This document shows, piece after piece, positions 27,066 to 48,925 of a stretch of DNA of 64,000 nt. The number at the start of each line of letters is the position of its first letter. Position 1 is the stretch's first letter. The notes under the pieces are model-generated. The model was not told where the DNA came from. It ran no database searches and was given only the letters and a program-made list of their open reading frames with translations. The DNA lies in the NCBI GenBank assembly GCA_903813345.2, contig CAIIXF020000005.1:16745375-16809374 (forward strand). The letters are read 5' to 3'. The DNA comes from Owenia fusiformis (Eukaryota; Annelida; Polychaeta; Sabellida; Oweniidae). The position numbers and the translations under genes were made by a program.

Positions 27066-30000
27066 CTATGTCATGACATATCCGTCGTCTCCGCCACTTT
27101 TATTCCGTTTGATAAACATAAACGCCACTAAACCTAATAATGCTACGGCGAGAACACCAAACAATACTCCCAACACAATTGTTGATGTTCTGAATCGGTT
27201 CACTTCTGCTGTTTTGTCTTTGATGGGCGAAGCTGTTGGGGAAGGGGGGCTAGGGTCGGTACCGGGTATATCATCCGGGCACGAATCACGCCATACAACA
27301 CCCCGGTCTTTATTTTCACGTTTCAACCAATCTATCAAAGGTTGGAAGTATTCCATAATAGGCTCAACAGTCATTTCTCTTGATCCAGTTATCTGTTCAA
27401 GTGCATCTGGCCATGGTTTTGAGCCGCCTAATTCCAGCATTGCCCTGAAATTGGAGATTCCTGTGCATTCAGTACTGGATAAAGCATAAGAATGAGATTT
27501 TATAAGAAATAATAAACCGAAGGCCGAAGGCCTGAGGTTATTATTTCTTATCAAATCGAATTCGAATGCTTTATCTTACTTAAATCACACACATTCTTAT
27601 TACAGGTAAATGGTATATTGCAGGTAAATGGTCAATGATCTAATCTGGAAAATTTTATTTCTTTTGTGTTGACTGTTCATGTAGTTATATAGCCAATTAA
27701 TTGTAACAACAAAAAAAGTTGGTTGCATTGACCTCATGAGTGTGAGTTGATGTAAGTGACTGAGTGGGCTATAATTAGTCTAGCTTCAGTGCACTACAGG
27801 TGACTGTCCAGTCCAGAACATTGCATTTGAATACAGCAGAATATTTGTAAGTAAGATAAGATCAATGATGTAGATAGCAACAAAATTTGATAAATTGTTT
27901 TATTCTAAAGAATGCACAGTAACAAGAGAAGGGTACGTGTATTTTTGTATATTGTTTTTAGGGAATGAAAACTATCAAAAACTGTCAATGGTCATTTATG
28001 TCTCACTTGTTTTTGATAGCTTGCCAAGTGTACATTCTTTAAAAACAATAGAAAAATAATGCACTTTCCTTTTGATAAAACCATACATTCTTAAAAATAA
28101 ACCACAGCAAATTCTATTGTGTTGCTACCCAAGTGGGATTTAATAGTGTATAATTGAAGTTCACCATAACGTACGTTTTTGAAGATTTCTTTGGATTAAA
28201 TGTGTCCGATGAAAGTCGAGTTTAGGCTCATGGGAATCATGACATTGAGGGAACGAAGGCATATGTCTAAACGGTGACAATAAAATCGTTAATAACATAT
28301 AACCTGATATGGGCATGTTTTTATTTGTTAAATCTGTATCATATACACATTTAAATATAGCAATCAACTATATATGTTAATGTTTTCGGAAAGGCAGAAA
28401 CGTGCGGAGGGATTTTACATCTAAGGTTATATCACCTAAATAAAATCAAAAATGACATTTCAACTGGAAGAAGATTTTTTAATGTTGCCAATTTTTAGAC
28501 AATACAGGTATACAATGAAACAGGTAGTGGATTATCATGAACTATTACTTGTGTAATGTTTATTTCCAATTTACCTGAGTTTTGCCCCAGCTTCTTTAGA
28601 CTTATATATATCACATTTGTACAGAGGCCCAGAATGTCCGGCAGCTTTACACAATGACTTGTGGAAATGGAACTGCAGTACGTGACTCACAAAATATCTG
28701 AAAATAATATACCTTGAGTGACAGAAACAGAAAGAAAAGTTCAAAACCCTTACATTTTTTGTTCCCTTACGATATTCTTGATCAAAAGAGGCGTTAATAA
28801 GTGAACCCCCGTGTTCCATTAGATTCTTGATCGAAAGAAGGGTTACAAAGTCAAACACCCAAATTTCGTGTTCCATTAAGATATTCTTGATCGAAAGAAG
28901 GGTTACAAAGTTACCCCCCCCTCAAACTTGTTCCATTACTAGACTTTTGATCGCTTACCTTATATAGGGAGTATTGCCTGGAATGTGATACTTTGCCCCA
29001 GGGTCAAAGTCTGCTTCTGAACGAGAGACTGGAGGCGATATACCCTGGTACTTACATCTAAACATAACAATTAAAACATACAGAATACAGTAAAACAGTA
29101 TGTACGACTAACAGAAATTGGCATCTTGATATCAAACGAAGGAATACACTCGAATATAACGGATAAAACAGTATGTAAATGGCAACATGAGAAACACTTC
29201 TCTAACATATAAAGAATGCTACTGACGAGTACAACATACATGTAACGTACCTCAGCTTCCACCATTGTTTGTTGTACTCTTCCGGAGTAATGGTACCATC
29301 GAACACCTTCCATCGCCATTGGTCTATGAGATAACCAAATGGCAAGAACGCAATCTTTTTTAAAGCTTGGGACATAAGGAAGTTGATGTCGCTTTCTGAA
29401 AATAAAGAACATTGACTAAAAAGCTGAAAAGACCTCAACCATTGATTCAACGTGTCAAATAATATCTAAAATAACTTATTCATGCATATTAAACGTTTCT
29501 GAACAGTACACGTACCTCTGTCTTCAGTGACATTATGAAGAAGGCCGATTAAGTTCAGGTGTTTGGGTGTGGATACAGACAATTCTAGTACATCACCAAT
29601 AGCCTCATGGAAACCTTAAAAAGATTATTACAAATCAATACAAGAAAATGAAAACATGTAAGCGTACATAAGATATAAGGAAAATAAACCCCAACTATCC
29701 CAAACCATAAGCTAACTGAAAAGAAACACTGACGTACATCTTAACCTATTTCGGGACGAACAATGTGCATGCCGAGCAATATGTTAACTACATTGTCTGA
29801 CCTGGATTAGCTCCTCCACGGAACAGCACGGGTTGATCTCTGTAAAGCATCTGGTACTCTGTGTGCCCCATCTCGTGGTGGACTGTAATCAGGTCTGTCA
29901 TTGTGATATCTGTGCATTGTTTTATCCTGAAACATTAAGATGGAAAATCCTTTGTGTGTGCAGCACCACCGCTTGATACCCATAAATCGAAGGACAAGGC

Positions 30001-32668
30001 CTGTATTAAGACAGGAGAGATGATATATATTATTAGATAATAGACAAAATCTATTTACCGGAAGTCTTTTCCATCCATGAAGTCCCATGCAGATGCGTGG
30101 CATATCAATGTTCTACCATCATTTGGATGTACAATTATACTTTTTTCCCAAAACATTTTCGTCATATTCAGCAATCCAATAGATGAGAAGAAATCTTCTG
30201 ATACATCAAACATTCGTCTAGCTGTATATTTCTAGAAGTAAGTTAAATATATTTGACTAGCTAGTTAGAATTTAGGAGTCATTCGCCTCATTGTCACTTC
30301 TAAAAGTAAGTAAAAACACAGTCGTTGTAATTTTAATTTTATAGTAGTATGTCAATGAATTTACCTGTTTCACCAATTCATCTGTTACATCAACGCTTGT
30401 TTTACCCTTATAAGGTATAAGAATGTCCTTATATATTCCCATCCAAGACTGTGCCCACATATTACCTAATAAAATATAAGATATTATTTTCTCATACACA
30501 TGATGATTATTTTAACAAACAACCCAAAAGTATCAATTTTACAAATCCGTACTTGAGGATTACAATAGTAAACAGGTAAACGCACCTAATAAATGTGCTG
30601 GAATATGGCCCTCTTTTGGAAAATGTTGGGCTCCATATTGTTCCATAAGTTTGTGTCTCGTGTATGCATGTAATTCTTCATAAAATGGTTTCAGTTGGTT
30701 CCAAAGGTTTTCACAAACTGTTTGAAAGTTCTTGTCTTCATACCATGACCTCCAGTAATCACCGGTATCCATAAAACCTATTTAAATGGTACAACCAATT
30801 AATTGTATGCTTAAAAATACAAATTATAAATACAAAAGAAAAAAAGCAAGTTAACAAAATTAGCAATACTTATTGAACGCCCTGTAAATGTATATATCTA
30901 TCATGTATCGATCATATGTATACTTCCCATAACAGTTGTGATATAGTTAACAGTAGAATGCTAGTTCATATTATGTTATTGTCCAAAATATTAAAGTACA
31001 GTTACAAATACGTTTATTATCAATTTCTTACCATTAGATCTCGTCCCTTCGTTGCTAAGTTGTGCAAACTCCGTGTATAAAGACCTCATCTTTCTACCCG
31101 TCTCATTTCGCCAACCTTGCCATGCCCATTTCAGTTGATCATAATCACGACTGTCTCTCATGATGTTTGTTAGACCTTTTGAACATAAATATTTTGTTAA
31201 TAATGTCTATAAACTTACTAACAAGGCACATGACGTGAACGAAATCAAACCACCAAGTAGAAACAAAGAAAACTAATCGATAAATGTTTTCATGGAATGG
31301 CAATGACAAGATTTATCTCAAAACTAAAACCAAAAGTTATTCAACAGTAGAATTTGAAGCACGAGAACAAGACGGCTGCCCAAAAGTTTATCCATGAAGG
31401 ATTTGTTGCCCGAACATATAAATTTCAAGAAAATCCGACAAGCGGTTTTCCTGGAATTGCGATGACAAATACAAAATGTATACTTTAATCATATCGACTA
31501 TATCCCACCGATGGTGTGATAAAAACTCGTATTTCACGAGTAAATGCTAATATTTTGAAAACATGACATGTTTATGATTAATAATAACACATGTAGGGGA
31601 GAGCACACGCAATACGCATGCTTTAATCAGTTGTTACCTGGTTCAAGTCCATAACATTGTCCACCTGCCTGATTGTCGCACACTTTCCCATCTGCATATA
31701 TATTAGACATTTCAGCCTGTACATCCTGCATCTGTGTCCAAATGAAAGTAATACATGTTACATCATAGGAAAACACTAACAATACAACATAAAATAAATC
31801 ACAGATATAACAGTTCATCCAAAAGTTTAATTAGATGGATAGGCGCATAGTAGAAAGCAAACACAAAAGTTCAATTTATATTTTCTTTGAACATTATTGT
31901 ATTTCTATATTGCAATATGCAAGTATATTCTATCCTTGTATCCTGATTACAATTGCTGCTAATGTTTATTCATTGACCTCGGCAGTTGCATCAGTATTAA
32001 AAGAAATAATTTCTGAAATAAAACAAAAAAAAACATGATTATGAAATAAGCAAAAAATGCTGGGTCACTTACCCTCCTTGATTTAGTTGAATTTCGAAGA
32101 GCGGCAGGTCCAATACTCGAGACTTTCCCAAGTAACCTCTTCAGAGTTTCATTTTGGAACCCTCCCCAATATAAACTGGTTATATTGTTGTAGGAATCCA
32201 GTTTGAATTTGTCCCTACGTAATTTCGCTTCAATCTTGAATTGGAAAAATATATAAATCACAGTATAAGGAAAACTTTTACAGAATAAAACTAACTATAT
32301 ACAACATACTTATAGCTAAAAATAACATGTCAGAGACCACCCATCACAATGCTTAAAAGCAATTAAACATGAACAAAACGTTTTGCATCTAAAATATGAA
32401 TGTATGTTTACATGCTTATTTCTAAGAGCTATTAAGGTTTGATACATGTTCACTGCCCCTCAACACAAGAAAGGGGTATTTGAGCAAAAAACTTATTGCT
32501 TACCGACTTTTGTCTGGTTTCATCAGTCATGTTCGAATCATAATTCCAACTGTTTATCGCTGCATCATTGAACACTACAGAAGTTGCTGCATTATTCTCC
32601 TCCATCCAACTCTGAGCATCAGCTTCATTTCGCATGGGACAGTCCTCCTCCCAACCTATTGGGAATCC
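27066..32668 (-). CDS. ACE: ACE domain 3 and membrane anchor (residues ~1193-1858)
   Basis: Thirteen exons; the same exon phases as domain 2. HEMGH at residues 1553-1557 (29863-29877), [20 protein letters not shown] and PYIRYF are all intact, so it should be catalytic. The first exon needs acceptor GAAAG before GGATTCCCAATAGG to keep phase, giving the [10 protein letters not shown] linker. The last exon adds a Pro/Ser/Asp-rich stalk, a membrane span at about residues 1819-1844, and a tail [14 protein letters not shown] before TAG. Confidence 0.93.
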
Positions 32669-35600
32669 CTTTCATAACGAAACAGAGGTTGTTGTTTAAC
32701 TCCAAGAAGAAATGTTTAATCGCAGGTATTTACAAAAAAAATATTTAAATTCATGATATGAAAGTTGCTGCAATTTGCTTACACATTACATTTCCAATTT
32801 GGCCATTTTTGAAGAGCAATATAAGGCATTAATGACCTCTATACGTCCTGTACTCTCCTGTACCCCGAAAGAGGGACCAAAATGTCTTAAGATTCTATGT
32901 GTATATATGCACTAGCTTGATCGTTTTTGCTGTTATGTATTATGGATCCAACAAGGTCAATAATGTCAACCGACTTACTTTGTTTTCCTTTTGCAACCAG
33001 TCTAATAGAGGCTGGAAGTATTCCACCAAAGCATTTGCAGACATATTGGGGGATCCCGTCAATGCCTCCATTGCTTCAGGCCATGGCCTTGAAGACCCCA
33101 TCTGCATCATGTTACTGAACGAAATTGTTTCATTATTTTGTTAAAATGACAGAAACATTTAAAGCGTTAAAGCATATTAAGACTGATGAAATTTATTTGT
33201 TCTGAAACACGCTGCTGCATCTCTTTTCAAATGGACTAGTCTTGAGGTAAACACTATGAATGGTTAGCGAAACCATTTATCGATGGACATTTTACAAGGG
33301 CCATATTACCTAACCTTAGCTACTTTATTCAGATTTATTCTAGAGCAAATGTCACAGGCTGGTATCGAAATATTTGTCCGCTGTGACGGAGCATGCTATT
33401 TTTCATAAAAACACTAAGAATACTTCACAATTTATTTTTTAACTCATATCTTTCGTTATACCATACAAAATTACTTACTCCATGCAATGGATATATTATT
33501 TGCGGGTAACTTTCACTTCTGTTTGAAGTCCAATTACGCTGGGAAGAAAAGCTATTGAAAATGGCGCCGGAGTATCATACTTCAAAATGTACCATTTCTT
33601 GTTTAACTTTCTAATGGCACGATATAGCATCCTCCGATCACAGGGCTTCAAAATCCAGAATATCTTCTTTCTTTTTACCCCCTGCTATAACCAAGTTGGA
33701 CGCGCCCGATTAAACCGAATCACGTGATCTAAGTATGCACCGATGATGTATACATGATTGCTGTCGCAGTGTTGCGACAGCCAATCAAATTGCGAGTTCT
33801 TAATCGGGGAAATGCTAACTGCTTATAGCAGAGGGAAAGAAGGAGGTACGGATTCTGGACACCTGCTTAGGAGGATGCAATATAGTGACACGATAATATT
33901 TACACATGGTTTCAGCATAACTATGAAGGTATAAATGAGATGTTGATGTGTTTGGTCTTTTTAATTCTTTTATCAAAAAATAATGTTTAATTTTTTTGTC
34001 CGCTGTGACGGAGCAGTTGCAAATGTGAACTGTGAAAATGCTCCGTCACAGCGGACAAAAAATATTAATATTATTTTTTATAAAAAAATTAAAAAGACCC
34101 AATGCATTAATATCTCATTAATACATTCAGAGATATGCTGAAAATATATGTTAATATTATCGTGTCACTATATCATGCCATTAAAAAGTTAAAAAAGAAA
34201 TGGTTCATTTTAGAGTTTGATACTCTGGCGCCGTTTTCAATAGATTTTACTCCTAGCGTTATTGGACTTCAAACAGTAGTGAAGGTTACACGCAAATAAT
34301 ATATCCATTGCATGGAGTAAGTAATTATCTTTGATATAACGAAACAAATGAGTTAAAAAACAAATCGTGAAGCATTCTTAGTGTTTTTATGAAAAATAGC
34401 ATGCTCCGTCACAGCGGACAAATCTTTCGATACCAGCCTGTGAATGTGAGATGTTTCGCTAACCTCAATTTTGTGCCAGCATTTGTGGAGTTATAAATGT
34501 CACAAGTATGTAGAGGTCCCTTATGTCCAGCTGCATCACAAAGACTTTTGTGGAATTGGAATTGTATAACATAGCTGATGAAATATCTGCAAAGACAAAA
34601 TCCCTCAGATGGCATAACATTAATTGTATCCAATGTTGTTTTCTGGGTGTTCATCAGTCTACAGCACGTTACGCTTGCTTTGAAAAATTTGTTCTCTTTT
34701 GAATATTCATAATTTAATTTGGGTGTTATTGCTATATTTTCAATGAAAAATTGGCGCTGTAGACTTATGAACTTCGTTACTACACGTTACGCCTGCTTCG
34801 AAGAACTCATCAGTGTTCCGCATAACATGGTAGAAAATCCAGAATGGACAATACCCTAACAGAGAACTGACCAATCGTGTTTATGTGATAGTAAAATAAA
34901 TCGATCAATGAATCAATTATTCCATTCTGTTGATCGAATTGAATAAAAACGTTAACATGCTCATCTTTCACTCGATGTTGTGCCCGAAGAGCATATTAGA
35001 CATATCCATTTTACCTTATGTATGGCGTATTGGCTGGAATATGGTACTTAGCACCAGGATCAAAATCATTTTCCGTCCTTTCAACAGGGGAACAAATACC
35101 TGCATATTTACACCTGAAATAAAGATATCTTATTATTACAATCATGAACATATATCAAAACGTGTTTGATTCCTTTATTATTGTCCATTCCTTAGATTCA
35201 TCACTCCCAGTAGTGCTTTATCTAATCCACTCACGTGAGATCCCACCACTTCTTATTGTACTGTTCAGGCTTAGTCTCCCCGCTAAACACACTCCAACGC
35301 CACAAATCATAGAAGTATCCAGTTGGCAAGAAGGCAAGCTTGCTTGCAGCTTGTCGCATGAGGAAATTGATATCACTCTCTGAAAAATCATTAACCCAAA
35401 ATTAGGTAAGAACATCTTAAAAAGCGTACTGTAAAGCGTAAGTATTGCATATTGTGAAGTCACTGAGTCACTGAGTCACTCAAATGGGGATCTTTTGGCT
35501 AATGTTACGCTAAGCATTACAAATTGCATCTATTTTACAGGAGAATGACTTCTATAGTGTGTAAGCTATATTTTACTCGAGAATTTTTTCTTCACGTGGT

Positions 35601-38600
35601 CAACAAATGTTCCAAATGACAAGCCTGAACAGTATTTATGTACCTTTGTCGGTCTCAAACGACTCCAGCAATCCTATTTGGTGCAAGTGGCTTGGTGTAT
35701 TCACTGATAAGGACATCACATCTCCAATTGCCTCGTGGAACCCTTAATAGAAATAAATGTATTAGGGGTCACACGGTTTGAGATTTCTCGGTTCGGTTCG
35801 GTTATTGTATTTCACAGTTCGGTTCGGTTCTGATTGCAGTTCTCACGGGCCTCGTGAAATGAGCAAAAATATATGAAATTGATCCGAAAATCATAAAACA
35901 TACTAAGTGTGTCACAGTGTGTCACAGTGTGTCACAGTATTGTATTCAGTATTGTAAGTATCCAGTTTCACACAATGTTTGTTTGTTTGTTCAGTCTTTT
36001 TTCCCTCCCTCCCTCCCAAAATATCTGTCTGTTCACTGTGTTGATCTTCTTGTTTGATGTTCAAGTTTTTTCAACACATAAAATAACTTGTCAACTGTTG
36101 GCAAAATTAGCACAGTACTTCACTAAACTGAATAAATGTTTTCTTTAGAAATATAACTTAAGTTCAACACTTTGTCAGGACTCAACATGGATCAAAGGCG
36201 AACGTAATACACAGAACGTGACTCGTTCGCAAATTCAATGCATTCGGCGTTCGGCTTTTTACAGTATACTGTTCTATCAACCAATAGGATTGCGCGAAAT
36301 GTTTAGCGTAGGTCACTTCCGGGTCAATATGCCGGTGAAATTTATCAACATTTTCCTTTTGTTTTTGTTATCTGCCGTCTATATCAGAAGATCGTCGTAA
36401 ATATCAGGTATGGTTCGCATTATTGCATGATGATTAACGATTCCAGACGATGTTTAGTTAATTGGTATTACACGAAAGCTTGAAATGGAGTTTAATTCCG
36501 AGTTTACATTTTTATTTTTCTGAAGTGAAACTGAAAATGTCACGGTTCTTCAAGAACTGCGGTTTTCAAGATTGTGTGCGAGCTAACCGTCGTGGAGGTA
36601 TGAACCGCGGTAACCGCAAGCCACGGTTAACCGTGTGACCCCTAAAATGTATACTGTCGCATTCATCTATTACACTTTGAAATGAGAGAATTCCGAATAT
36701 ATACGATATGAGGGAGTTTAAGCTTGCATATAAAATCGAAACGCCAACCTATACGTATACTGTATGTATGACCAATTGTACAAATACATCGCTTAAATAT
36801 TTCCGTTCACGTTTAGGTTGTGTAAAACATTGCAAGCTTAAACTCCCTATTATATGGGACATTACACCTGAAATATACAGCTTTACCTGGGTTACCACCT
36901 CTGCGGAAAAGAACTGGTTGGTGCTTGTATTGTAAGTAATATTGCACGTGTCCCATTTCATGATGTGTCGTTACAAGATCACCCATCGTCATCCTAGTAC
37001 ATTGCTTAATTCTAGAACAATCAAATAAATCGCACTGAAGCAGCAATGAACCGGGTTTACCATTAACATTATTTCATTAATTAGGTTGATATGTTTACTA
37101 TGATTAGGAAAATGTCATTCCATAACGAACCATCCTTCGGCTCCAAAATCAATCCAGAATACCTTCTTTCTTTAATGTACGAATTCTGGACACCTGCTTA
37201 GAAGGATGATAACGAACCTGAAGTCTTTTCTGTTGTAGAAGTCCCAAGCAGAAGCATGACACACGACTTCCCTATCTGTTGGTCTCTCAATCATTGAGTG
37301 TTTCCAAAATTCTTCTGGCATTTTGAACATCCCAAGTGAAGTAAAGAATTCTTCGGATGTTTTGAACATTCTTTTTGCATCCCATCCCTAAATAAAGTGA
37401 TAAATTACATAATGAAACATACAACATGACTCTTGATAGGCCTAGAGTACATATGATACTACTGCGAGTATGATTTATAACTTATAAAATACATATTTTA
37501 CCTGTCTAATCAATTCAGGTGTGACATCAACACTGGGTTTGTCTTTGTACGGTCTGAGAATATCAGGATATATAGCAGTCCACTTTTGAGCCTGAATATG
37601 ACCTAGTAAGTTAAAGAAGAATCATTTAAGTATGACCTCACCTGTCGAACTATCTCAGGAGTGACATCCACACTTGGTTTATCCATATATGGTCTGAGAA
37701 TATCAGGATAGATCGAAGTCCATACTTGGGCCTGAATATGACCTTAAATTAGACACACATTGATAAATACCACACGTGAGCAAATCGTTTGGTTGATTTA
37801 CATTCCAAGTCGTCGTACAAGTTAATCAACTACGGGACTTGTAAGGTCACCTCTCTTAGTGATGAATTTTGATGACAAGATTGTATTGAAGAATGCAATG
37901 TCATGCACCCATGACCCAGCATGTCCAAAACCTAATTTGGGGCAATTAACAGAAATTTCATAAAGTTAAGAATTCGTAAAGTTCATTGTTCTCTCACTGT
38001 GACATCATTATATCCATGGTTACAACAACTGATTTATGGATTCGTAACTTTACAAAGTTTCTGTTAGTGGCCCTCGATAATTAATACGTTTTCTTAGGAT
38101 ATTTGAAAAATTCATCATGACCACCATGTTTAGAGCTTACCCAATAAATGTGCAGGTATATGTCCCGAAGGTGGGAATTTGTCTCTGCCATATTTGTCAC
38201 TTAGTTTTCTCCGTGCATAGGCATGCAACTGTTGGTACAACGGTTTAACTTTCTCCCAAAGTTCAGCACATACCTCTTTGAAGTTTTCAGTTTCGTAATT
38301 ACTTCGCCAATAATCACCAGTATCCACAAACCCTTTAAACATATTGTACAAATACAAAATGAAACATTGTGATAGAACCCGTTTCTTGTCTAAAAGTAAA
38401 AGTTATTAGAAAAATCATGGAGAATTATAACAGTATAATTACCATTTGCAGCAGAACCTTCGTTGCTAAGTTTAACAAACTCTTCGTATTTAGCTTTCAT
38501 ATGCGGTCCTGTACTGTCTCTCCATCCCTTCCAGGCCCATAGCAACTCGTCATAATCCCGGGAATTTGCCATAATCCCAGCAATACCTGATTAATATAAC

Positions 38601-41600
38601 ACGTTAGTCCATGTATATAGGCTAAAAGTTGTGCTCGATGGAAGGAGATACAAGCGAAATTTAGTATTAGCAATCCACATATGTATTGTTGTTATCACAT
38701 GTATAGATGAAATGACCATTGCTGTTGTGGTCTCGGAATATGATAATGGTACTTGAATGGTGGGGAGAGGGTATTCGATATTGATTCTTTTCATATTAGA
38801 ATATGGTTCAGGATAGTTGGGGTTTGTTTTCCTTATGACTGGTGTACATATTTCCATTTTCCTTTGCTAGGTTCTGTAACAATTTTTGGTCCATGTGCAT
38901 ACATATACATCCTAGGTAAGCAGTACTAACTGGGCTAAAACTGAAATTTCTCTAGGGTTCATTGTGGTATTCAAAATACAATTTAAAGTCAATAGTCAAT
39001 CATTTTGTTGTGTAGCAACATATACATGAACATACCTGGATTGAGGTTTAGACACTCTTCATTTATTGTGCCATCTACTTGGGTTACATTCCTACAAACT
39101 TTAGCTGTGCTGTATATTGTTTCCATTTCTGATTGAATAGATGTAAGCTGAAAATAATGCGTCAAAATTGTTTTTTAACAAGTCAATACTTCATAAACAC
39201 AATGACAGTTTTGATTTATCAATACGATTTTCGATACTACCTGTATTTACTTTCATCATATAAATTTGTCCTGATAGTTTAATGACTACCACATTAAAAT
39301 GTATACTCACATTTTTCTTTTTACCTTCGTCCTCAAGAGCAGATGGTCCTATACTGGTGATCTTTCCAAATAATCTCTTCAGAGTTTCATTTTGGAACGA
39401 CTTCCAGTCGTATCTCCTAGCACCGTTGTAGGATTCTAAACTAAACTGACTGGATTTAAGACTCTCTGCGTTCTACAAAAAAATGGAAATGTGCTATTTG
39501 ATGAATGCCCGGGGACAAATGTAATATTTATACTCATTATACGTTTGTAATAGTGGTTAACTTCGCAGTTTCTTCGCGAAATACTCAACGCTGGTAAGAG
39601 GTACAATAATATAAGGTTTATGTAGTGATATTTTGATTTTTCTCTGTAAATATTGTTAATTGTAACAATTCAGGATTCATGATCAAGTTGGGATAGTTCC
39701 CACATTTGAACGTAATAAGTTCATTCATTGTCATATAACTTACTGCTATTTTCTGGTTGTCATCGGTAATGTTCGTTTGATAGTTCCATCTCGCTGAAAT
39801 TGATGTAAATCGAACGGCAGATATGTTTCGATCATGTTCATCAACAAACACATTGCCTGCGGCCTCGTCAAGCGACAGATCAGCCTCACATCCTGAAAAC
39901 AATGAAGTGCATCTTCCATTACATTTCCTAGCCTAACAAACATTTTAAAACACGTGTATGTTATATAACAAAATTCGTTAAAATTACTTGAATACTACAA
40001 GGGCCGATCAAAAAGTTTCTTACCGTTGGCTCTAAATTTTATAATAAGAGGAGTTGGATACTCAAACTTTAACTTTTTGAGCGGCCCTTGTATATGCTTT
40101 GCATACCTTCAAACCAGCCAATTCTCACTTTGTTCTTTCTGTTTTCTCGTCTGAGCCAGGCTAGCAATGGGCGGAAGTACTCTACTAGAGGCGCAGCTGT
40201 CATTTCACGCACACCTGTGATTCGTTCCATTGCATCAGCCCAATGTTTAGATGCACCAAGTTCCATCATTTGTCTGTAAAAGGCCCCATGCAAAGTCAGT
40301 TATATTTCTTAATCATCATCAAAATATTATTTTGCATGATTTAATAAATGTTTGCGAAAGTTTTGAATTTCCTCGCTCAATGGGATAGATCAAAGAAAGT
40401 TTAGAACATTACAACTAGTATATTCAAATTTTATGCATACATAAAATCTGAAGCATCATGCACGCTGGAATTTCATTGAAGTTGCACATATAGTTCTTTT
40501 TCAAAATGTACTTATTATTTTCTCTTATATAAATCTTATTTAGACGTGATAAATTTTTGAAATAAGAAGAGACAAACTTTGCATCGAGTATAAAATAAGT
40601 ATTTGTCCCATTTTTAATAGTTCAATCTGTACCATTAGGTTTAGATGAAAATTAAAATTTTAAAATGCATTTAATCTTTTTTAATTTCAACGCAATATAA
40701 AACAATGAGTTCTTCAAAACAAGGAAAAGAAACAGAAAGAAAATTTACTTCATGAGATTTCCTGCATTCTTTGATTGGTAAATATCGCATTTGTAGAGTG
40801 GTCCAGTATGTCCAGCTGCTTTGCACATTGCTTTGTGGAATTGGAACTGAACCACATGGCTCACAAAGTATCTGTAACATTTTCAATCTTATCATATCTT
40901 GCAAGCGAATTTACCTTCAATTCATTTAAGAACATCGGAAAGGATATACAGGATGGGACGATATCTTAAATGCAGAAATTACATTCGCAGTTTTCCTGAA
41001 AGGTACGAACAAATATCTAGGAGGTTCTGAATAGGAAACAGAGGATCTTATAAAATATCAATCAGTTTTAAATGATGTGGGACAGATGAAATCCGATTTT
41101 CAAGTCCAAAGAGTCAACAACCAACTGCACAGCAGACGCAATAGTAGTCCATAAACGAAATGATTAACAATTGTCCTAAAAAGCATTGAATATAATTCAC
41201 GAGGAATATAACGCAACAACTATATTTACTTGGACATAGAGATTTTAACAAGAATGAAATCATAAGAGTATTATTACAAACCTAATGTATGGGGTATTGG
41301 CAGGTACGTGATATTTAGCACCTGGGTCAAAGTCATCTTCGGTCCTTTTGACTGGTGGAGTTAGACCTTGAATCTTACACCTAAAATGCAATTATATTTA
41401 TAAGTGAGAGAATACGAGGTCCAGACATAAAACTGGATGAGATTAAATGTATGAGAAATGAGCCATCAATGGAAAAGGGATTGGTATGATTAAGGATAAT
41501 TTGGAAGTCACAATGATCCAAAATGTTTACTTGTAGCATTTCTTTCCATGCTTATTTTCTTTAGTTCTAAAATGACTTTATACGTATAACAATATTCTGA

Positions 41601-44600
41601 AAAAATTATCTTGTTTACGTGTGCATATTTAACTATTAATAAATAAATTTATTTGATATCTCAATTTTTATATAACATTGGGATCACACTCTACCATTTT
41701 CTTATAATTACATAACCCCACACCTTCGTTGAATTCTCACCTTAGATCCCACCACTTTTCATTGTAATTAGTTTCATCGATGTTTCCTCTGAAGACATCC
41801 CACCTCCATTGGTCTATAAGGTAACCGAATGGTAGGAACGCTAGCTTCTTGGTGGCTTCACTCATCAGGAAATTCAGGTCCATTTCTGGTATACGTAATG
41901 AATTCAGAAAGACTTAGGGTATATATTTTGATGAACGTGTAATATCATCCCTTGAACGTAGGATTACAAACTTCAAGCTCAAAAGGGAAAATGTGTGAAT
42001 GGTGTCTTGAGTGCTGCATTTTGAAGCTAAGAGTGTGCAATAAACCAATGAATAATGTTTTATATCTATGATAATAATATAATACAAAATATATAATAAT
42101 GTCAATACCGTCATCATCGGGCGTATCTTCAGGAAGAAGCTTGATTTTCTTCAAATGACCAGGTGTCGCCACTGACAAGGCAAGTACATCACCGATAGCT
42201 TCATGGAAACCTGGGTTTGCGCCTGTTCGGAACTTAATTGGTTGATGGGCATACTGCTGAAAATACTGTATGTGACCCATTTCGTGGTGAGCAGTTATCA
42301 TACTCGTCATGGTTGTCACAGTGCACTGCTTTACTCTAGAAATAGAAAATGATGTGAAACAATAGGCAGGTATATATGTAAGCTACACTTTTACGCGAAC
42401 GCGTCGTATTATGACGCCATTATTATGCCCCCTCAAATAAAATTAAAAGGGAGATATTATCCCTAGATTACCATAATTTTACACGTTCATGTAAACGTTA
42501 TCTTAAAATTGTGTAGTTTTTACCTTCCAAATAGGATGACGTTCAAACGTGTAAAATAAGTGTTTAGTTATATCATACATGTATAGGTTTGAGCTTACTG
42601 TCATTTGTATCAAAGAATTAATATGAGACCATCAAATTCAATAAAAAATGATTTTATCATGTGATTAGTAAATATAATTAAAGCAAATATTACTAATCTG
42701 CTATACAATATTACTGACCTAAAATCCCGTCCATTCATGAAATCCCACGCTGAGGCATGACAAACAACACTCCTATCAGACGGCTTCTCCAGCATAGACA
42801 TATTCCAGAAAGTTGGCACCATAGCTTCCAGCCCAAGAGAAGTGAAGAATTCCTCCGAAAGCCTAAATATGGCGGTTGCATTGTAGCCCTAAAATAAAGG
42901 CTATAGCTATATATATGAATTGCACATAAAATTATATCGCAACATAGATATGTATGGTTCTTTCGACTTCGTGAAGTTGGAGCAAACTGAAACCTTGCGA
43001 AATCAAGATGTCTTTCAGCAATGTCAGCCATTACTTTGTTTTATATAGCTAAAAATACCTACCTGTCTGACCATTTCATCCGTAACATCTACGCCTTGTT
43101 TTTCAGGAAAAGGTTTGAGGATGTCATTAAGGTTAACCCATGATTGACCCCACATGTTTCCTGATAATATGCAAATTACAATTTTTTGTGAACGTGAATG
43201 ACATAATACAAAACATGATAAGACATTACAACACCAATATTAATAAATATAATTGCTTTCAGCACATATGGTATATGGTATATATTTTAGTAGGTTTGAT
43301 TTACATTAATATCTAAATACTTGCAAATATTTTTAAGTGACTTTATAGTAGAACACCAGAATGAAAAGAAACCCTATATATACAAACCTAACAGATGTGC
43401 TGGTATATGGCCGGTGGTTGTGAATTTATCAGCATGGTCTTTGTAGGTCTGCTTTAGTTTAAACAAAGTATATGCATGGAGTTCTTGGTATAAAGGTTTC
43501 AGTTCGTTCCAAAGTTTCGCAGTCTTTTCGATAAGGGCATCATCCTCATACCAGGATCTCCAGTATGCACCATTGTCTTCAAAACCTTTTAGCAAAATAA
43601 AACAAAACACTTATACAGCTAGTTAGTAAAATGGTAAGTGAATAGTCCAAGGCCTACATGTAAATGTCATGACAAAACCATCATAGGATTGGGCTTTGAT
43701 TTCCCGGTTACGGCACCACTTTGTATATGTACAAGGGCCGATCAAAAAGTTTCTTACCGTTGGCTCTAGATTTTATAATAAGAGGAGTTGGATGCTCAAA
43801 CTTTTACATGAGACAGGGTAGTAAGTTTGTTTGAGACTGTCTGAGTTTCATTTAAATTGGTTCATTGGTTGTGACACAGAGTCAATACATATTTTCAATG
43901 ATTGAATTAGGTGGAGCAGCGTTTTTTATAAAAAATTGTGCTAAGCTGCAGTTTTGGAAATTTCTCACACTAAGTAGTGTCATCTGTCAACAGACTGTAG
44001 TTTAATCATGTTTCATTAGTTTTTCTGCTAATATTCATTCTCATTCAAAATATTCAACCTCAGTTGCAATGCACTTCCTAAATCTGTCCACCCGATCCAA
44101 AAAACACATGTTTAAGGCCTTCGTATGAGAGGTTTTGAACGATCTCGGTAAATTTCCAGAATCACAACTCAGCAAATATTTTATATATAACGCTGCTCCA
44201 CCTAACTTTGTCATTGAAAATATGAATTGACTCTGTGTCACTACCAATAAACCAATTTATATGAAACTCGTACAGTTTCACGCAAACTAACTATCCTGTC
44301 TAGTGTTAAAGTTTGAGCTTCCAACTCCTCTTATTATAAAATTGAGAGCCAACGGTAAGAAACTTTTTGATCGGCCTTTGTATACTGGATAAACACGTCA
44401 ATATGTCTCACCGTTCAACCTTGATCCACTATTGCTAAGCTCAACAAACTCCATGTAGCTGTCTCTCATCTTCTTGCCACTTGCGTTCCTCCAGCCTTCC
44501 CATGCCCAAAGCAGACGATTATAATCACGTGACTCTGCCATGATTTTTGTCAATCCTACAACACAAAAGCATACACGTCTACTCTACTAAATCATAATGT

Positions 44601-47600
44601 AACATGACCAAATTTTGAGGTAAACTGACTTTTCTAGTGGTATATTGGAACCTTCGTGAATTTTGAAGCTCTTATTTGCTTGAAGCTATTGACACGCGGT
44701 ACTAACTTCGACCGTTAATTTGAATTTTTGACCTACCGGATGTTTGAAAATCAATGATTACGAGTCTCATACTGCACCGTTTTTCTTACTTGTTCCATTC
44801 AAAGCAGATAACAAAAATCCCTTTCTGCTGTTACATTATTCTCTTAAACAGAGTCCCAACTTCCAGCGGCATTTTGGTCCCAAGCTGTAAGAAGGCCTCC
44901 TAACAACTGGGGACCAAAACGCTGCTAGAACGAGGGACTCTTTACAATAAAGTAATGCACCAACAGAAAGGCAATTTTGTTTTGCTTTTAATGGTATAAG
45001 TTTGAAGAAAAACGGTGCAGTATGAGACTCGCAATCCTTGATTTTCAAGCATCTGGTAGGTCAAAAATTCAAATTAACGGTCGGAAGTTAGGACCGCGTG
45101 ATAGATTAATATAATACGTAAAACCGTCTCTATTTCGGTGACGTAGAGTGGATCCTGGTGCTTCATGTTACCATGCTATTACATTATCTTTGTGATCTGA
45201 GATTTAGTGAAAGGGAATTAAAAATAATCGTGAAATTCTGTTCAGCTGTCTCCCATACCTGGTTCAAGTTCTTCGCACTCTGTGCCGTTACAAACCTCTG
45301 CCTTACTGTACGTTGTTCGCATGGAGTTCAAAACTTCACCTAACTAAAAATATTAAATAACAAATTATAAAAAGTATTCACATTTTTCTTCTCTCCACTT
45401 ATTAAACAAAATACTTCAAAGTTTAATACCACAAGAAGCTTCAAAATGAAGGAAAATTAGGCAAATTAATCACATATCAAACTAAAATGAATGAAAATTA
45501 GGAAAATGAATCACATATCAAACTATACTTCTTTTATAATTACATATTAATTATTTCCTTGAAATAGCTGAAAACAAGGACACGGTAATCACATTTGTAC
45601 ATGTAAGTGGTGAATATTGATTTGGGTGAAAGGCAGGATCAAAAGTAGACAAAAAAACTATATTACTGTTAAATATGACTAGTTCATTTACTTTAGAGAA
45701 TAATGATTTATTTTCGACGTTTCGCCGGTCATCCAACCTGCCTCATCAAGAATTGGATGACTGGCAAAACGTCGAAAATAGATCGTTATTCTCTAAAGTA
45801 AATGAACTAGAGTCATATTTAATGTATTACCAGGGAGATGATTTACTGTTCACTTATAAGAGGTTTGTTAAAACTTTTATTGTAATACACATGTATATTG
45901 AGCACTCACTCTTTTTGCCTTTTCGGCAGGGAGGGCTGCTGGTCCGATGTTGGTGACCTTACTGAACAGTCGACGGAGTGTCTCGTTTTTGAAGTTCGTC
46001 CAGTTATACGTCCTTGCTTGGAGATAAGCTTCTTGGTTAAATTGTGACGATTCTAAACTTGCTTGTGCCTGGAGTAAGAACGAGGGAAATGATTTAAGTA
46101 AGATCTCGGGAGTAAGATGTACCATTCTGATTCATCACAGTACCACTTTATCTAAAGCGTTATCCCAAGGGATGGTAGAGATTGTGGAACCCACAATGAA
46201 GGTGTACCAGTAAAAACTTAATCAAACAATTTGTTATGTATGTTTTTTCTAATATTGCCTTTACACCATTTTCGTGCCAATGTGTGAAGTTATTCTTTGG
46301 TCTTGAACCAGCCGAAACCGTGTTTATCCAGAGACGTTTTATATGTCTCTGGTTTACTGTATAAGTGGTAATTTTGCCTAATCATTTAATTTGCCTATTT
46401 CCCAATTTTTTCCAGGTTCGGAAAATTAAATGTCGGAAATATTGTCTTTATAATGTTATCCAATGGAAGGTTTCTTGTCATTAGGAAAATTAAAATTAGG
46501 AAAATTAGGAAATTTGACCTTTCGGAAAATAAACCACTCGGATTAAATACCACTTATACAGTATCTAAATCCTGTTCCCTGCAAGGCCTTTATGGTGTAT
46601 GATGCCAAACTTTCACCATAGCCTGCTACATTGTATGGTATCTGTATATGATAATAGGGTAAACTTCACCGGGTGTCATTAATTGGCTGGATATCGAGGT
46701 GGGGGGGGGCAATCCTTGTCCCTTTTTGATCCTGCATATACTACATCGATCACATATCATGTTCATAAACTTGTCACATAGGGTTCTTGCTTATAAATGA
46801 CAAACTTATCGAGTAGCCACATATGTTCTTGAGTCAAACTGATAAAAATATCCACACGGGGCAAGATACTGTACAAGTGATAATTTTGTCTTATCATTTA
46901 ATTTGTCTATTGCCCAATTTTTGCGGCCAGGTTCGGAAAATTAATTTCGGAGATATCATCTTAATTCCAATGGGAAGTTTATTGTCATTAGGAAAATTAA
47001 AATTAGGAAATGATAAAATTTGACCACTCGGGAAACCACTCGGATTAAGTACCACTTTATACAAATAATCATGTATTCTTGATATTTTTTAAAGTGAAGG
47101 TAGACTTCAAGATGATATAAAAACGTTTTTAAACATATTTTGTCATTCAAATTAATGTCCGATATCAGTTTGGTTTTGTCACAACTTTGTTTCAGCTATC
47201 ATTTATGTGACTTAATGACAAAAGAATTTCAGAAAAAACTGTTTTGAAAAGTTCAGGTTTTTCTTCTGGCCGCCATGAGACAGAAGGGTTGCCGCTTCAT
47301 TTTAATATGCATTATATTATATTTAGATTTTTGCCCAAGTTTGAACATTTCAATCATCAGTTTTTCTTTTTTTCCAATGCATAGAAATTTTTGCATATTC
47401 TTCTCATTAAACAACCTAGTATCGTTAGCTCACAGTGAACACCATCCATTGATCTCTATTGATAGTAAACCTGAAGTGCGGTAACTTCTCAACATTTTTG
47501 AGGATCCCCATGTTTTGAAACATTGAATTCCACTGTTTTACATCAATGTTTCTACATAATTCTTAGCCCTAGATGACGAGAAGACATAAATGCATAATAA

Positions 47601-48925
47601 AAAGTAAACTTTTTACCTCAAATGTCCAAAATAATGTTCAAATCTTTAGAAATATGCTCATTTTGACTGAATGTTTCCACAGATGGACATCTCGCAAATT
47701 CTACTGTAAAGTCTCGAGCAAATTTCGGGCAATCGCCTTTTCATTGATGCAATACATTCCAACAACCAATCCGATCTCTCAATCTCTGCAAACTTCCGTT
47801 TTGAGTGGATCTCAGTAAAGTTTTGGAAAACCGAGGGCAACTTTTGATTGAGAATTGAATTTTTCACCCATATATCAAGTCCAATCAGGTTTTAATGGTA
47901 CTCTATTAGTTTTCTAAATCTTTTGAGCACATATTCATGCAAATATTTATGGGAAAGTATTCGATGTTGAAGTGTAATATTGGATTGAATATACCGGAAG
48001 TTAAATTTCAAATTTTAAATTTTGACAAGTAACCGCACTTCACATCTTCTTTCAATAGAGATCAATGGATGGTATTCACTGTGCGTTAGCTATATATGGG
48101 GAAATACATATGAAAATGTTCAACCATACATGTCACCTCAAATTCTACTTGAATTGACTATGCTACAACACAGTGTACAACATACCAAGATCGATCTTAT
48201 ACCATTAATGGATTTTATAGGTAACGTTTTAATCTTATCGTGCAGTGCATTTTTCAAAACACTGACAAGTTCAAGCACTGCCTACTTCAATAGATATACA
48301 CGATACAACCTCAATGGCCAAACATGATTACTATTACAGAAAGTGGAAATCTTTCCTTGTATAAAACGAATATTTCTAAAAACAATTTGCGAGAATTTTA
48401 CGGGTTTAGGCCAGAGTTCAATGAACTGTGACGATTTATAGCGCGGGGATAACATATTCGACTTTAATGAGTGAAAGCCGTACAATTCACCGACAATTTC
48501 TATGATTAAATTTTATTTTCACACACAGCAGTACTTTTCACAATATGGGTAAAAAGAATAAAATTTAACCAGAAAATATTTGTGAGGTCAACATTTTGAC
48601 TAACATAAACACTTACTTGGTCTATAATTGTTATGACATTATTTTTCACTCAACTGCCGACTAAGTTATGGAAACGATGAGTGACTTATTTTGAGGGGCA
48701 TTATCATGTTTCACCACCTACCGATTTCGCAGATGTTTCATTTGTTATGTTGGTCTGGTAATCCCAACGAGCATACGCTCCCTTGGAATACACCAGAGAT
48801 GCATTCTTGTCGAATTCAGTCATCCATTCCCATGCTCCTGCTTCATCGTTTCTGAGGGATTGGCTGTGGATACTACAAACTCCGCTAAAAAGTATTAATG
48901 TGGTGCACAGAAGCATATTTGCCAT
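27066..48925 (-). CDS. ACE: Three-domain angiotensin-converting enzyme (peptidyl-dipeptidase A, M2), membrane-anchored
   Basis: A zinc dipeptidyl carboxypeptidase with three tandem M2 domains, each with its own HEMGH site. Exons, domain 1: 48925-48722, 46068-45910, 45343-45259, 44555-44412, 43585-43388, 43160-43063, 42888-42719, 42335-42109, 41885-41741, 41380-41282, 40871-40749, 40273-40107. Domain 2: 39892-39744, 39472-39311, 39147-39036, 38586-38443, 38332-38141, then 37742-37642 OR 37602-37502, 37387-37218, 37011-36887, 35742-35644, 35379-35235, 35113-35015, 34586-34464, 33114-32979. Domain 3: 32668-32504, 32234-32073, 31731-31638, 31175-31032, 30777-30586, 30465-30365, 30231-30059, 29926-29802, 29614-29516, 29395-29251, 29057-28959, 28697-28575, 27444-27066. 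The coding sum is 5577 bp (1858 residues plus stop), in frame throughout. A signal peptide opens it; near the end are a Pro/Ser-rich stalk, one membrane segment ([20 protein letters not shown]) and a short tail. Human somatic ACE has two domains and typical insect enzymes one. Role inferred: ectoenzyme trimming C-terminal dipeptides. Confidence 0.95.
27503..27551. repeat. Short hairpin in ACE last intron
   Basis: AAGAAATAATAAACC pairs with the inverted GGTTATTATTTCTT across a GGCCGAAGGCC centre, about 60 bp upstream (gene sense) of the last exon's acceptor. Confidence 0.7.
28765..28950. repeat. ~65-bp tandem repeat in ACE intron
   Basis: Three imperfect copies carrying TTCTTGATCGAAAGAAGGGT then ACAAAGT and TGTTCCATTA, directly beside exon 29057-28959. 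Confidence 0.85.
31350..31530. repeat. Dispersed core-module repeat copy
   Basis: Contains CGACAAGCGGTTTTCCTGGA and ATTGCGATGACAA, then TATCCCACCGATGGTGTGATAAAAA. The same core occurs in the receptor intron element (3897-5353) and at 63600-63790. Confidence 0.65.
32979..39892 (-). CDS. ACE: ACE domain 2 (residues ~607-1192), with duplicated exon
   Basis: Thirteen exon positions, one in two alternative copies. HEMGH is at residues 967-971 (36948-36962); [20 protein letters not shown] and PYIRYF are all intact. The exon after HIPAHLLG reads HIQAQ in both copies, where domains 1 and 3 have NMWGQ/NMWAQ, so this domain diverged in a normally conserved stretch next to the substrate pocket. It is joined to domain 1 by an IGWFEGCEAD linker. 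Splice sites here are crowded by transposons: a hAT element 12 bp from one acceptor, a MITE whose duplication forms a donor, and a palindrome 16 bp beyond another donor. Confidence 0.92.
33353..34442. mobile_element. 1.09-kb palindromic transposon with nested insertion
   Basis: Long inverted arms beginning CACAGGCTGGTATCGAAA, each with TGTCCGCTGTGACGGAGCAT; the centre repeats that motif in both orientations. Flanked by the 5-bp duplication AATGT (33348-33352 and 34443-34447). It holds a nested element at 33629-33878. It lies in the ACE intron, its right duplication 16 bp from the donor of exon 34586-34464. Confidence 0.88.
33629..33878. mobile_element. Nested MITE (CATCCT family)
   Basis: Ends CATCCTCC...GGAGGATG with internal ATTCTGGACACCTGCTTAGG. 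Flanked by CGATATAG / CAATATAG. The opposite arm of the host palindrome shows the empty site (GGCATGATATAGTGACACGA), confirming insertion. Related to the 78-bp copy at 37131-37208. Confidence 0.8.
35763..36644. mobile_element. hAT-like non-autonomous element
   Basis: 882 bp; termini TAGGGGTCACACGGTT and the exact inverse AACCGTGTGACCCCTA; a perfect 8-bp target duplication AAATGTAT at 35755-35762 and 36645-36652. An 8-bp duplication with such ends is the hAT signature. Subterminal GGTTCGGTTCGGTT repeats. No transposase frame. Inside the ACE intron, 12 bp from the acceptor of exon 35742-35644. Confidence 0.92.
37131..37208. mobile_element. 78-bp MITE with 9-bp target duplication at a splice donor
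   Basis: CATCCTTC...GAAGGATG, flanked by perfect ATAACGAAC at 37122-37130 and 37209-37217. The right copy is exactly the first nine intron bases after ACE exon 37387-37218 (donor GTTCGT on the minus strand). Confidence 0.88.
37502..37602 (-). CDS. ACE: ACE domain 2 alternative exon b (downstream copy)
   Basis: 101 bp with the same entry and exit phases as exon a. Encodes [18 protein letters not shown] and then [15 protein letters not shown]. Acceptor AACTTACTAG, donor GTAAAA. Separated from exon a by only 39 bp. Reading a then b breaks the frame and meets TGA inside b. It carries Lys right after the AQ motif. Confidence 0.9.
37642..37742 (-). CDS. ACE: ACE domain 2 alternative exon a (upstream copy)
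   Basis: 101 bp, entering after one base of a Gly codon and leaving at a codon boundary. Encodes [18 protein letters not shown] and then [15 protein letters not shown]. Acceptor TTTAAG, donor GTGAGG. It matches exon b at 28 of 33 residues and about 81 of 101 bases by eye, with about ten of the changes silent. It carries Val right after the AQ motif. Confidence 0.9.
37937..38077. repeat. Hairpin repeat in ACE intron
   Basis: GGGGCAATTAACAGAAATTT pairs with the inverted AAAGTTTCTGTTAGTGGCCC across a 100-bp centre. It sits next to a diverged copy of the CCCAGCATGTCCAAAACCTAA dispersed repeat (about 37900). Confidence 0.7.
39998..40090. mobile_element. 93-bp deletion derivative of mariner-like element
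   Basis: TA-flanked; starts CAAGGGCCGATCAAAAAGTT and ends TTTTTGAGCGGCCCTTG. Its left 75 bp matches the longer copy at 43732-44380. Confidence 0.88.
40107..48925 (-). CDS. ACE: ACE domain 1 (residues ~1-606)
   Basis: Twelve exons. Active-site features visible: HEMGH at residues 370-374 (42272-42286), the third zinc-ligand Glu in GFHEAIGDV, the backbone-binding CHASAWDF motif, and GAKYH plus PYIRYF carrying the transition-state His, Tyr and the chloride-linked Arg (roles from human ACE). Cys pairs VC...EC, VCHAS...KQC and MCKAAGH...YKC are kept. Unlike domains 2 and 3, the HEMGH and HEAIGD parts are on one exon (42335-42109), so one intron is missing. The N-terminal leader is [15 protein letters not shown]. 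All catalytic residues are present, so the domain should be active. Confidence 0.93.
43732..44380. mobile_element. Mariner-like element, TA-flanked, 649 bp
   Basis: Ends CAAGGGCCGATCAAAAAGTT...AACTTTTTGATCGGCCTTTG, flanked by TA both sides. Long inverted arms continue inward (AGGTGGAGCAGCGTT / AACGCTGCTCCACCT). A minus frame near 44041-44160 reads [18 protein letters not shown], which resembles the C-terminal end of mariner-type transposases (weak, from family memory). Inside an ACE domain 1 intron. Confidence 0.8.
44688..45103. mobile_element. ~415-bp palindromic element
   Basis: Arms carrying AACTTCGACCGTTAATTTGA and ATGAGACTCG/CGAGTCTCAT with AAAACGGTGCAG; centre ATTTTGGTCCCAAGCTG / GGGGACCAAAACG. 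In the ACE intron between exons 45343-45259 and 44555-44412. Confidence 0.82.
45447..45526. repeat. 41-bp tandem duplication
   Basis: Two copies of AAAATGAAGGAAAATTAGG...ATCACATATCAAACT. Confidence 0.8.
45678..45811. mobile_element. 134-bp near-perfect hairpin element
   Basis: TAGTTCATTTACTTTAGAGA ... GAAAATAGATCGTTATTCTC with symmetric TCGACGTTTCGCCGGTCATC / GATGACTGGCAAAACGTCGA. In ACE intron 2. Confidence 0.85.
46353..46563. mobile_element. ~210-bp MITE, copy 1 (ATAAGTGGTA ends)
   Basis: Starts ACTGTATAAGTGGTAATTTT and ends TACCACTTATACAGT. Shares CATTAGGAAAATTAAAATTA with copy 2 at 46868-47063, in the same ACE intron 1. Confidence 0.82.
46868..47063. mobile_element. ~195-bp MITE, copy 2
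   Basis: Direct, diverged copy of 46353-46563: begins ACTGTACAAGTGATAATTTT, ends AGTACCACTTTATACA. Confidence 0.8.
47428..48095. mobile_element. ~670-bp inverted-repeat element in ACE intron 1
   Basis: Left end GCTCACAGTGAACACCATCC and ATTGATCTCTATTGA; right end the inverse, GGATGGTATTCACTGTGCGT. GAAGTGCGGTAACTT also pairs. Non-coding. Confidence 0.8.

Follow-up and report, generated by a model that had tools for sequence, protein, structure and literature searches.

The locus examined here raises the question of whether two adjacent and closely similar exons in an ACE gene of Owenia fusiformis are alternatives, of which each transcript would take exactly one, and what such a choice would change in the enzyme. 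The window, a stretch of 64,000 nucleotides, corresponds to C5:16745375-16809374 in the 498-Mb genome assembly, and positions are those of the window unless a contig or another locus is named. Annelid globin-linker-type searches gave three matches above the cut-off in this assembly, and no COX1 match was found there.

The three-domain ACE gene

The exon pair lies in a gene on the minus strand with three peptidase M2 domains, D1 to D3. Pfam matches and spliced alignments identified HHEMGH and a downstream GFHEAIGD in each of them.

27066..48925, minus strand: three-domain ACE (peptidase M2) gene, putatively membrane-anchored (Pfam PF01401 exon matches, spliced alignments)
about 48.9-40.1 kb, minus strand: D1 (spliced alignments; junctions by eye)
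39.9-33.0 kb, minus strand: D2 (spliced alignments; junctions by eye)
32.7-27.1 kb, minus strand: D3 (spliced alignments; junctions by eye)

Inspection by eye pointed to a likely signal peptide at the gene start (48925) and to a hydrophobic C-terminal segment, a putative anchor, before the stop at 27066; the splice sites at the D1/D2/D3 junctions were also judged by eye to be frame-compatible. The gene is assigned to the ACE/peptidase M2 family by its Pfam matches and motifs, and dipeptidyl carboxypeptidase activity is predicted. D2, with copy A of the exon pair, matched the human C-domain with 687 bits.

Three ACE domains are thus present in one apparently membrane-anchored protein; the sections of PMC1325048 used here describe ACEs with one or two. 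The architecture resembles that of human somatic ACE and AnoACE9 in its tandem peptidase M2 domains and hydrophobic C-terminal region, but differs in having three domains where those two enzymes have two (PMC1325048). The alternative transcripts named in the same sections arise from another promoter or another first exon, and no alternative internal exon is mentioned there for human somatic ACE or AnoACE9, unlike the arrangement described below. Elsewhere in the window, a candidate ADP-ribosylglycohydrolase was recognised by eye in adjoining open frames on the plus strand (54242-55399).

Layout and reading frame of the exon pair

The region of D2 that contains the two exons, designated A and B, is arranged as follows.

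38141..38332, minus strand: D2 exon 5, the upstream constant exon, ending in phase 1 (spliced alignments, frame test)
37743..38140, minus strand: intron upstream of exon A, 398 bp (spliced alignment)
37642..37742, minus strand: exon A, 101 bp, with a weak AAG acceptor and a strong donor, CAG/GTGAGG (sequence, splice-site scores)
37603..37641, minus strand: spacer, 39 bp, with two yUnAy matches and an in-frame TAG if retained (sequence)
37502..37602, minus strand: exon B, 101 bp, with an ordinary acceptor and a strong donor, CAG/GTAAAA (sequence, splice-site scores)
37388..37501, minus strand: intron downstream of exon B, 114 bp (sequence)
37218..37387, minus strand: D2 exon 7, the downstream constant exon, entered in phase 0 (spliced alignments, frame test)

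The initial annotation had described two adjacent 101-bp exons with the same entry and exit phases, and this was exact to the base: A and B are two copies of D2 exon 6, entered in phase 1 and left in phase 0, with GT-AG ends. Its counts by eye were reproduced on recounting, with 81 of 101 bases identical and the same residue in 28 of 33 full codons (29 of 34 if the split Gly codon is included). Many of the differences had been called silent, and 13 of the 20 substitutions do fall at codon position 3 (5/2/13 at positions 1/2/3).

The frame remained open through exon 12 when exon 5 was joined to A and then exon 7, or to B and then exon 7. An early stop was encountered when both exons were skipped, when both were joined, and when they were joined with the 39 nt retained. 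As had been predicted, joining A to B shifts the frame and leads to a TGA inside B; when the spacer is retained the stop is a TAG. A and B are therefore neighbouring, homologous exons that agree in length and phase and keep open frames, and their joint inclusion is unproductive by frame and stop, all of which are features by which mutually exclusive exons are recognised. Not one of 20000 simulated copies of B carrying 20 random changes kept to five or fewer residue changes; 8634 of the 20000 stayed open, and the open frame alone therefore proves little. Overall, A and B very probably form a mutually exclusive pair, derived by tandem duplication, in D2 of the three-domain ACE.

Assembly duplication was ruled out, as the 241-bp A-B block has a single place in the assembly and A and B, with 20 differences in 101 bases, are strongly diverged at synonymous sites; the chance that the pair is an assembly or haplotype artefact is practically nil. 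The peptide of exon B had five places in the assembly, namely B, A and the homologues in D3, in a paralogous gene on contig C1 (see below) and in D1. A second copy of the homologous exon was not found in D1, D3 or the C1 paralogue by assembly search.

43063..43160, minus strand: D1 homologue of the A/B exon, 98 bp, one copy found (spliced alignment, translated search)
30365..30465, minus strand: D3 homologue of the A/B exon, 101 bp, one copy found (spliced alignments, translated search)

The spacer and the splice sites

Under the mechanism proposed here, exon 5 would be joined to either A or B and the chosen exon to exon 7, while the spacer would set the branch point of B too near the donor of A for one spliceosome to pair them. 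Joined or skipped products, which meet a stop, would be degraded. The shortest of the 36 intron spans listed for this gene and the C1 paralogue was 110 bp (range 110-3376 bp), in a list that includes the 254-bp span from A to exon 7, which contains B, and omits D1 after exon 7, the interdomain junctions, D3 exons 8-10 and the gene in L006. Very short aligner spans (55 bp in D2 and 81 bp in D3), on which two runs disagree and which look like alignment artefacts, were dropped.

Two branch-point (yUnAy) matches were located in the spacer, at 31 and 35 nt from the donor of A, or 8 and 4 nt short of its 3' end, the best being the one at 31 nt. A threshold for steric interference of about 50 nt is given in the parts of PMC7969005 and PMC5740500 referred to here. 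The length of the spacer and the position of this match strongly indicate a steric block of A-B joining. Of the two locks claimed by the initial annotation, that of frame was thus confirmed from the sequence, and the steric one is strongly indicated, by 39 bp against a minimum of 110 bp and by the branch point at 31 nt. Some animals do splice very short introns, and if the spacer were likewise spliceable A and B might be ordinary cassette exons. That arrangement is extremely improbable, however, given the frameshift and TGA that follow joining and the lack of any span below 110 bp among the 36 listed.

Splice sites were scored against a set taken from both ACE genes (39 donors, 37 acceptors), and the sites of A and B did not enter the training. 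The donors of A and B were both strong (ranks 32 and 30 of 39, respectively). The acceptor of B was ordinary (rank 24 of 37), whereas that of A ranked 2 of 37, and a score as high is reached by approximately 24% of all 1151 AGs across the gene region, genuine acceptors among them. An A before the acceptor AG was present in 6 of the 37 acceptors. The earlier description of the acceptors and donors as intact was therefore borne out for both donors and for the acceptor of B, but not for the weak acceptor of A. Because of this asymmetry, B is likely to be the default copy and A the regulated copy. The weak acceptor is also the main evidence for another reading, that only B is used and A is a relic exon, rarely or never spliced owing to its poor acceptor and not yet decayed; the open frame and strong donor that A has kept argue against it.

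No convincing docking or selector RNA helix was detected in nine duplex comparisons with 100 shuffles each; the best duplex, between the spacer and the downstream intron, was matched by 1 of 100 shuffles. A strong hairpin within the intron that precedes A (z -2.16, with 4 of 100 shuffles as good) was rejected as a splicing structure, as it belongs to a multi-copy palindromic repeat. For this MITE-like repeat of 135 bp (37939-38073), 40 of 553 candidates were scored, and 39 of them were further copies.

Selection on the two copies

Divergence between A and B was estimated by two counting methods as a dN of about 0.10-0.11 against a dS of 0.76-1.26; a maximum-likelihood fit gave a dS of 7.5, which was considered unreliable and not used. 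The excess of substitutions at third positions was significant (binomial p=0.004). A codon model with the D3 homologue and the C1 paralogue as outgroups rejected joint neutrality of A and B with free branch lengths (p=3e-6), and in this underpowered setting neutrality was not rejected for either copy alone (A, p=0.31; B, p=0.66). When equal time since duplication was assumed, neutrality was rejected for both A (omega 0.13, p=1.7e-4) and B (p=3e-7), for which omega reached the fit's lower bound, 0.007. Protein-coding constraint on both copies is thus supported under equal time, and to that extent the suggestion that selection had kept both coding stands; it gained no such support for each copy taken alone with free branches.

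All five of the polarised changes at codon positions 1 and 2 fell on A, and two more could not be polarised. This pattern indicates that A is under looser constraint or under selection for change. Together with the rank of its acceptor and the neutrality of A that free branch lengths did not reject, these five changes are what a relic exon would predict. The constraint on A under equal time is evidence to the contrary, and overall we regard a relic A as unlikely.

Exon content and the S2' subsite

Alignment to human ACE placed the exon at N-domain residues 254-286, a segment that includes the sites Gln259 (C-domain Gln281), Asp255/Asn277 and Ser260/Thr282. That the exon codes for S2'-subsite residues is a point beyond the initial annotation, as are the tandem exon clusters that a second ACE gene carries outside the window (see below). 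According to the parts of PMC12820606 and PMC11997989 consulted, Gln259/Gln281 binds the terminal carboxylate of the ligand, the Asp255/Asn277 site contacts that carboxylate via two waters, and Ser260/Thr282, at which the two human domains differ, is close to bulky P2' groups. The contacts of the Thr282 site with one drug, at 4.3-5.0 A, are described as not indicative of strong interaction (PMC12820606).

The Gln is kept in both A and B, which also have in common a His at the Asp255/Asn277 site and a Gln where human ACE has the neighbouring Trp. The five residue differences between A and B are V/K at Ser260/Thr282, S/A at Asn263, M/K at Pro272, and I/L and V/I at 283-284. The chance that one of five differences hits the Thr282 site is 0.15, and the position alone is therefore only suggestive. 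A shift in specificity is plausible from the Val to Lys change itself. Exon choice would then swap part of the S2' subsite, with Val (A) or Lys (B) beside the conserved carboxylate-binding Gln, and the two isoforms would be expected to trim peptides with different last residues.

The early stops in both the joined and the skipped products might instead mean that the pair serves mainly in dose control, with unproductive splicing via stop-containing RNA mattering more than the two proteins. Such a role would leave unexplained both the protein constraint on the two copies and the V/K difference at a subsite residue, and joining would require excision of the 39-nt intron; it is considered highly unlikely.

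Paralogous ACE genes

The paralogous ACE gene on contig C1 lies on the minus strand at C1:17604500-17622500 (17.605-17.622 Mb; L004, L005). Three of its exons are repeated in tandem, with GT-AG ends and matching phases: exon 2 (copies of 159 and 162 bp, the second detected at E 3e-9), exon 3 (two copies of 88 bp with 7 of 29 residues alike, the second detected only at E 0.013) and exon 12 (a triplet, each copy 123 bp long). Tyr501 (Tyr523) is kept in all three copies of exon 12, and the Phe505 (Phe527) site is occupied by Tyr in 12a, Glu in 12b and Phe in 12c. Tyr523 and Phe527 are among the S2' pocket residues given in the part of PMC12820606 drawn on here.

The lengths of the exon 12 copies are multiples of three and their spacers measure 212 and 675 bp, so that neither lock of the D2 pair applies. 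In the equal-time test, constraint was detected on 12a (p=0.009), and neutrality was not rejected for 12b (p=0.067). The middle parts of 12a and 12b differ at 2 of 72 bases, which suggests conversion or recent duplication. The intron before exon 12a holds a repeat of about 2 kb (L004:3297-5275) with many genomic copies (approximately 70-99% identity).

In each of the two ACE genes an independent tandem exon cluster would exchange one residue of the S2' subsite, at the Thr282 site (V/K) in the three-domain gene and at the Phe527 site (Y/E/F) in the C1 gene. This might indicate that the substrate choice of ACE has been retuned by splicing in this lineage, a proposal that we put forward tentatively and consider somewhat less probable than its contrary.

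Two further ACE-like genes were observed. The first, at C5:1387000-1390300 (L002), is a single open frame of 767 codons in which HHEMGQ replaces HHEMGH, and a zinc ligand is thereby changed. The second, at C7:10487500-10491600 (L003), is split into two open stretches, of 396 and 305 codons, and retains HHEMGH.

Comparison with known mutually exclusive exons

Mutually exclusive tandem exons are a well-known class of mechanism; no report of alternative internal exons for ACE was found among the titles and abstract openings of the open-licence papers that the searches brought up. This genome carries tandem exon arrays in the second ACE gene and in a myosin gene. The latter, a myosin heavy chain gene on the minus strand at C9:37985700-37994700 (L019), served as an unplanned control, its splice sites being viewed and not scored; one exon of its motor domain (TYSGLFCVVINPYKRLPIY...) is present there in at least 12 tandem copies. 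A stop near the start was present in 2 of the 12 translated exon matches, possibly through the inclusion of intron bases. We take this array to be the counterpart of the exon 3 cluster in the Drosophila gene.

Clusters of alternative exons have been published for many protostome myosin genes, including that of the annelid Capitella, and in metazoan muscle myosin heavy chain several such clusters tune one enzyme, as may occur here, although the protein there is a motor and here a peptidase (PMC3912159, in the portions used). The OGDH exons 4a/4b are likewise an ancient tandem exon duplication with a short intervening intron, in which the branch points lie 25-41 nt from the upstream donor, a distance that enforces exclusivity, and the exons alter an enzyme property, the response to Ca2+ (PMC7969005, in the portions used). 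The branch points and isoforms of OGDH were measured, whereas those of the ACE pair, whose whole spacer is 39 nt, are predicted from sequence. By homology, length and frame the ACE pair falls in the same class as the human catalogue of mutually exclusive exons, but the part of PMC5740500 cited requires junction reads for each exon, and the pair was classed here on sequence features only.

Implications

In human somatic ACE, different specificities are separated by two fixed domains. In contrast, a single domain of the O. fusiformis enzyme may alter its pocket through the exon that is spliced in. Should both isoforms be produced, A and B would provide a natural pair of enzymes with five residue differences between them, including one in the S2' subsite, which has also been studied in drug design, and the exon pair would be a compact natural test of a splicing lock that combines steric hindrance with a frameshift. 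If the retuning of substrate choice by splicing is true of this lineage, each ACE locus could make enzymes with differently charged S2' pockets.
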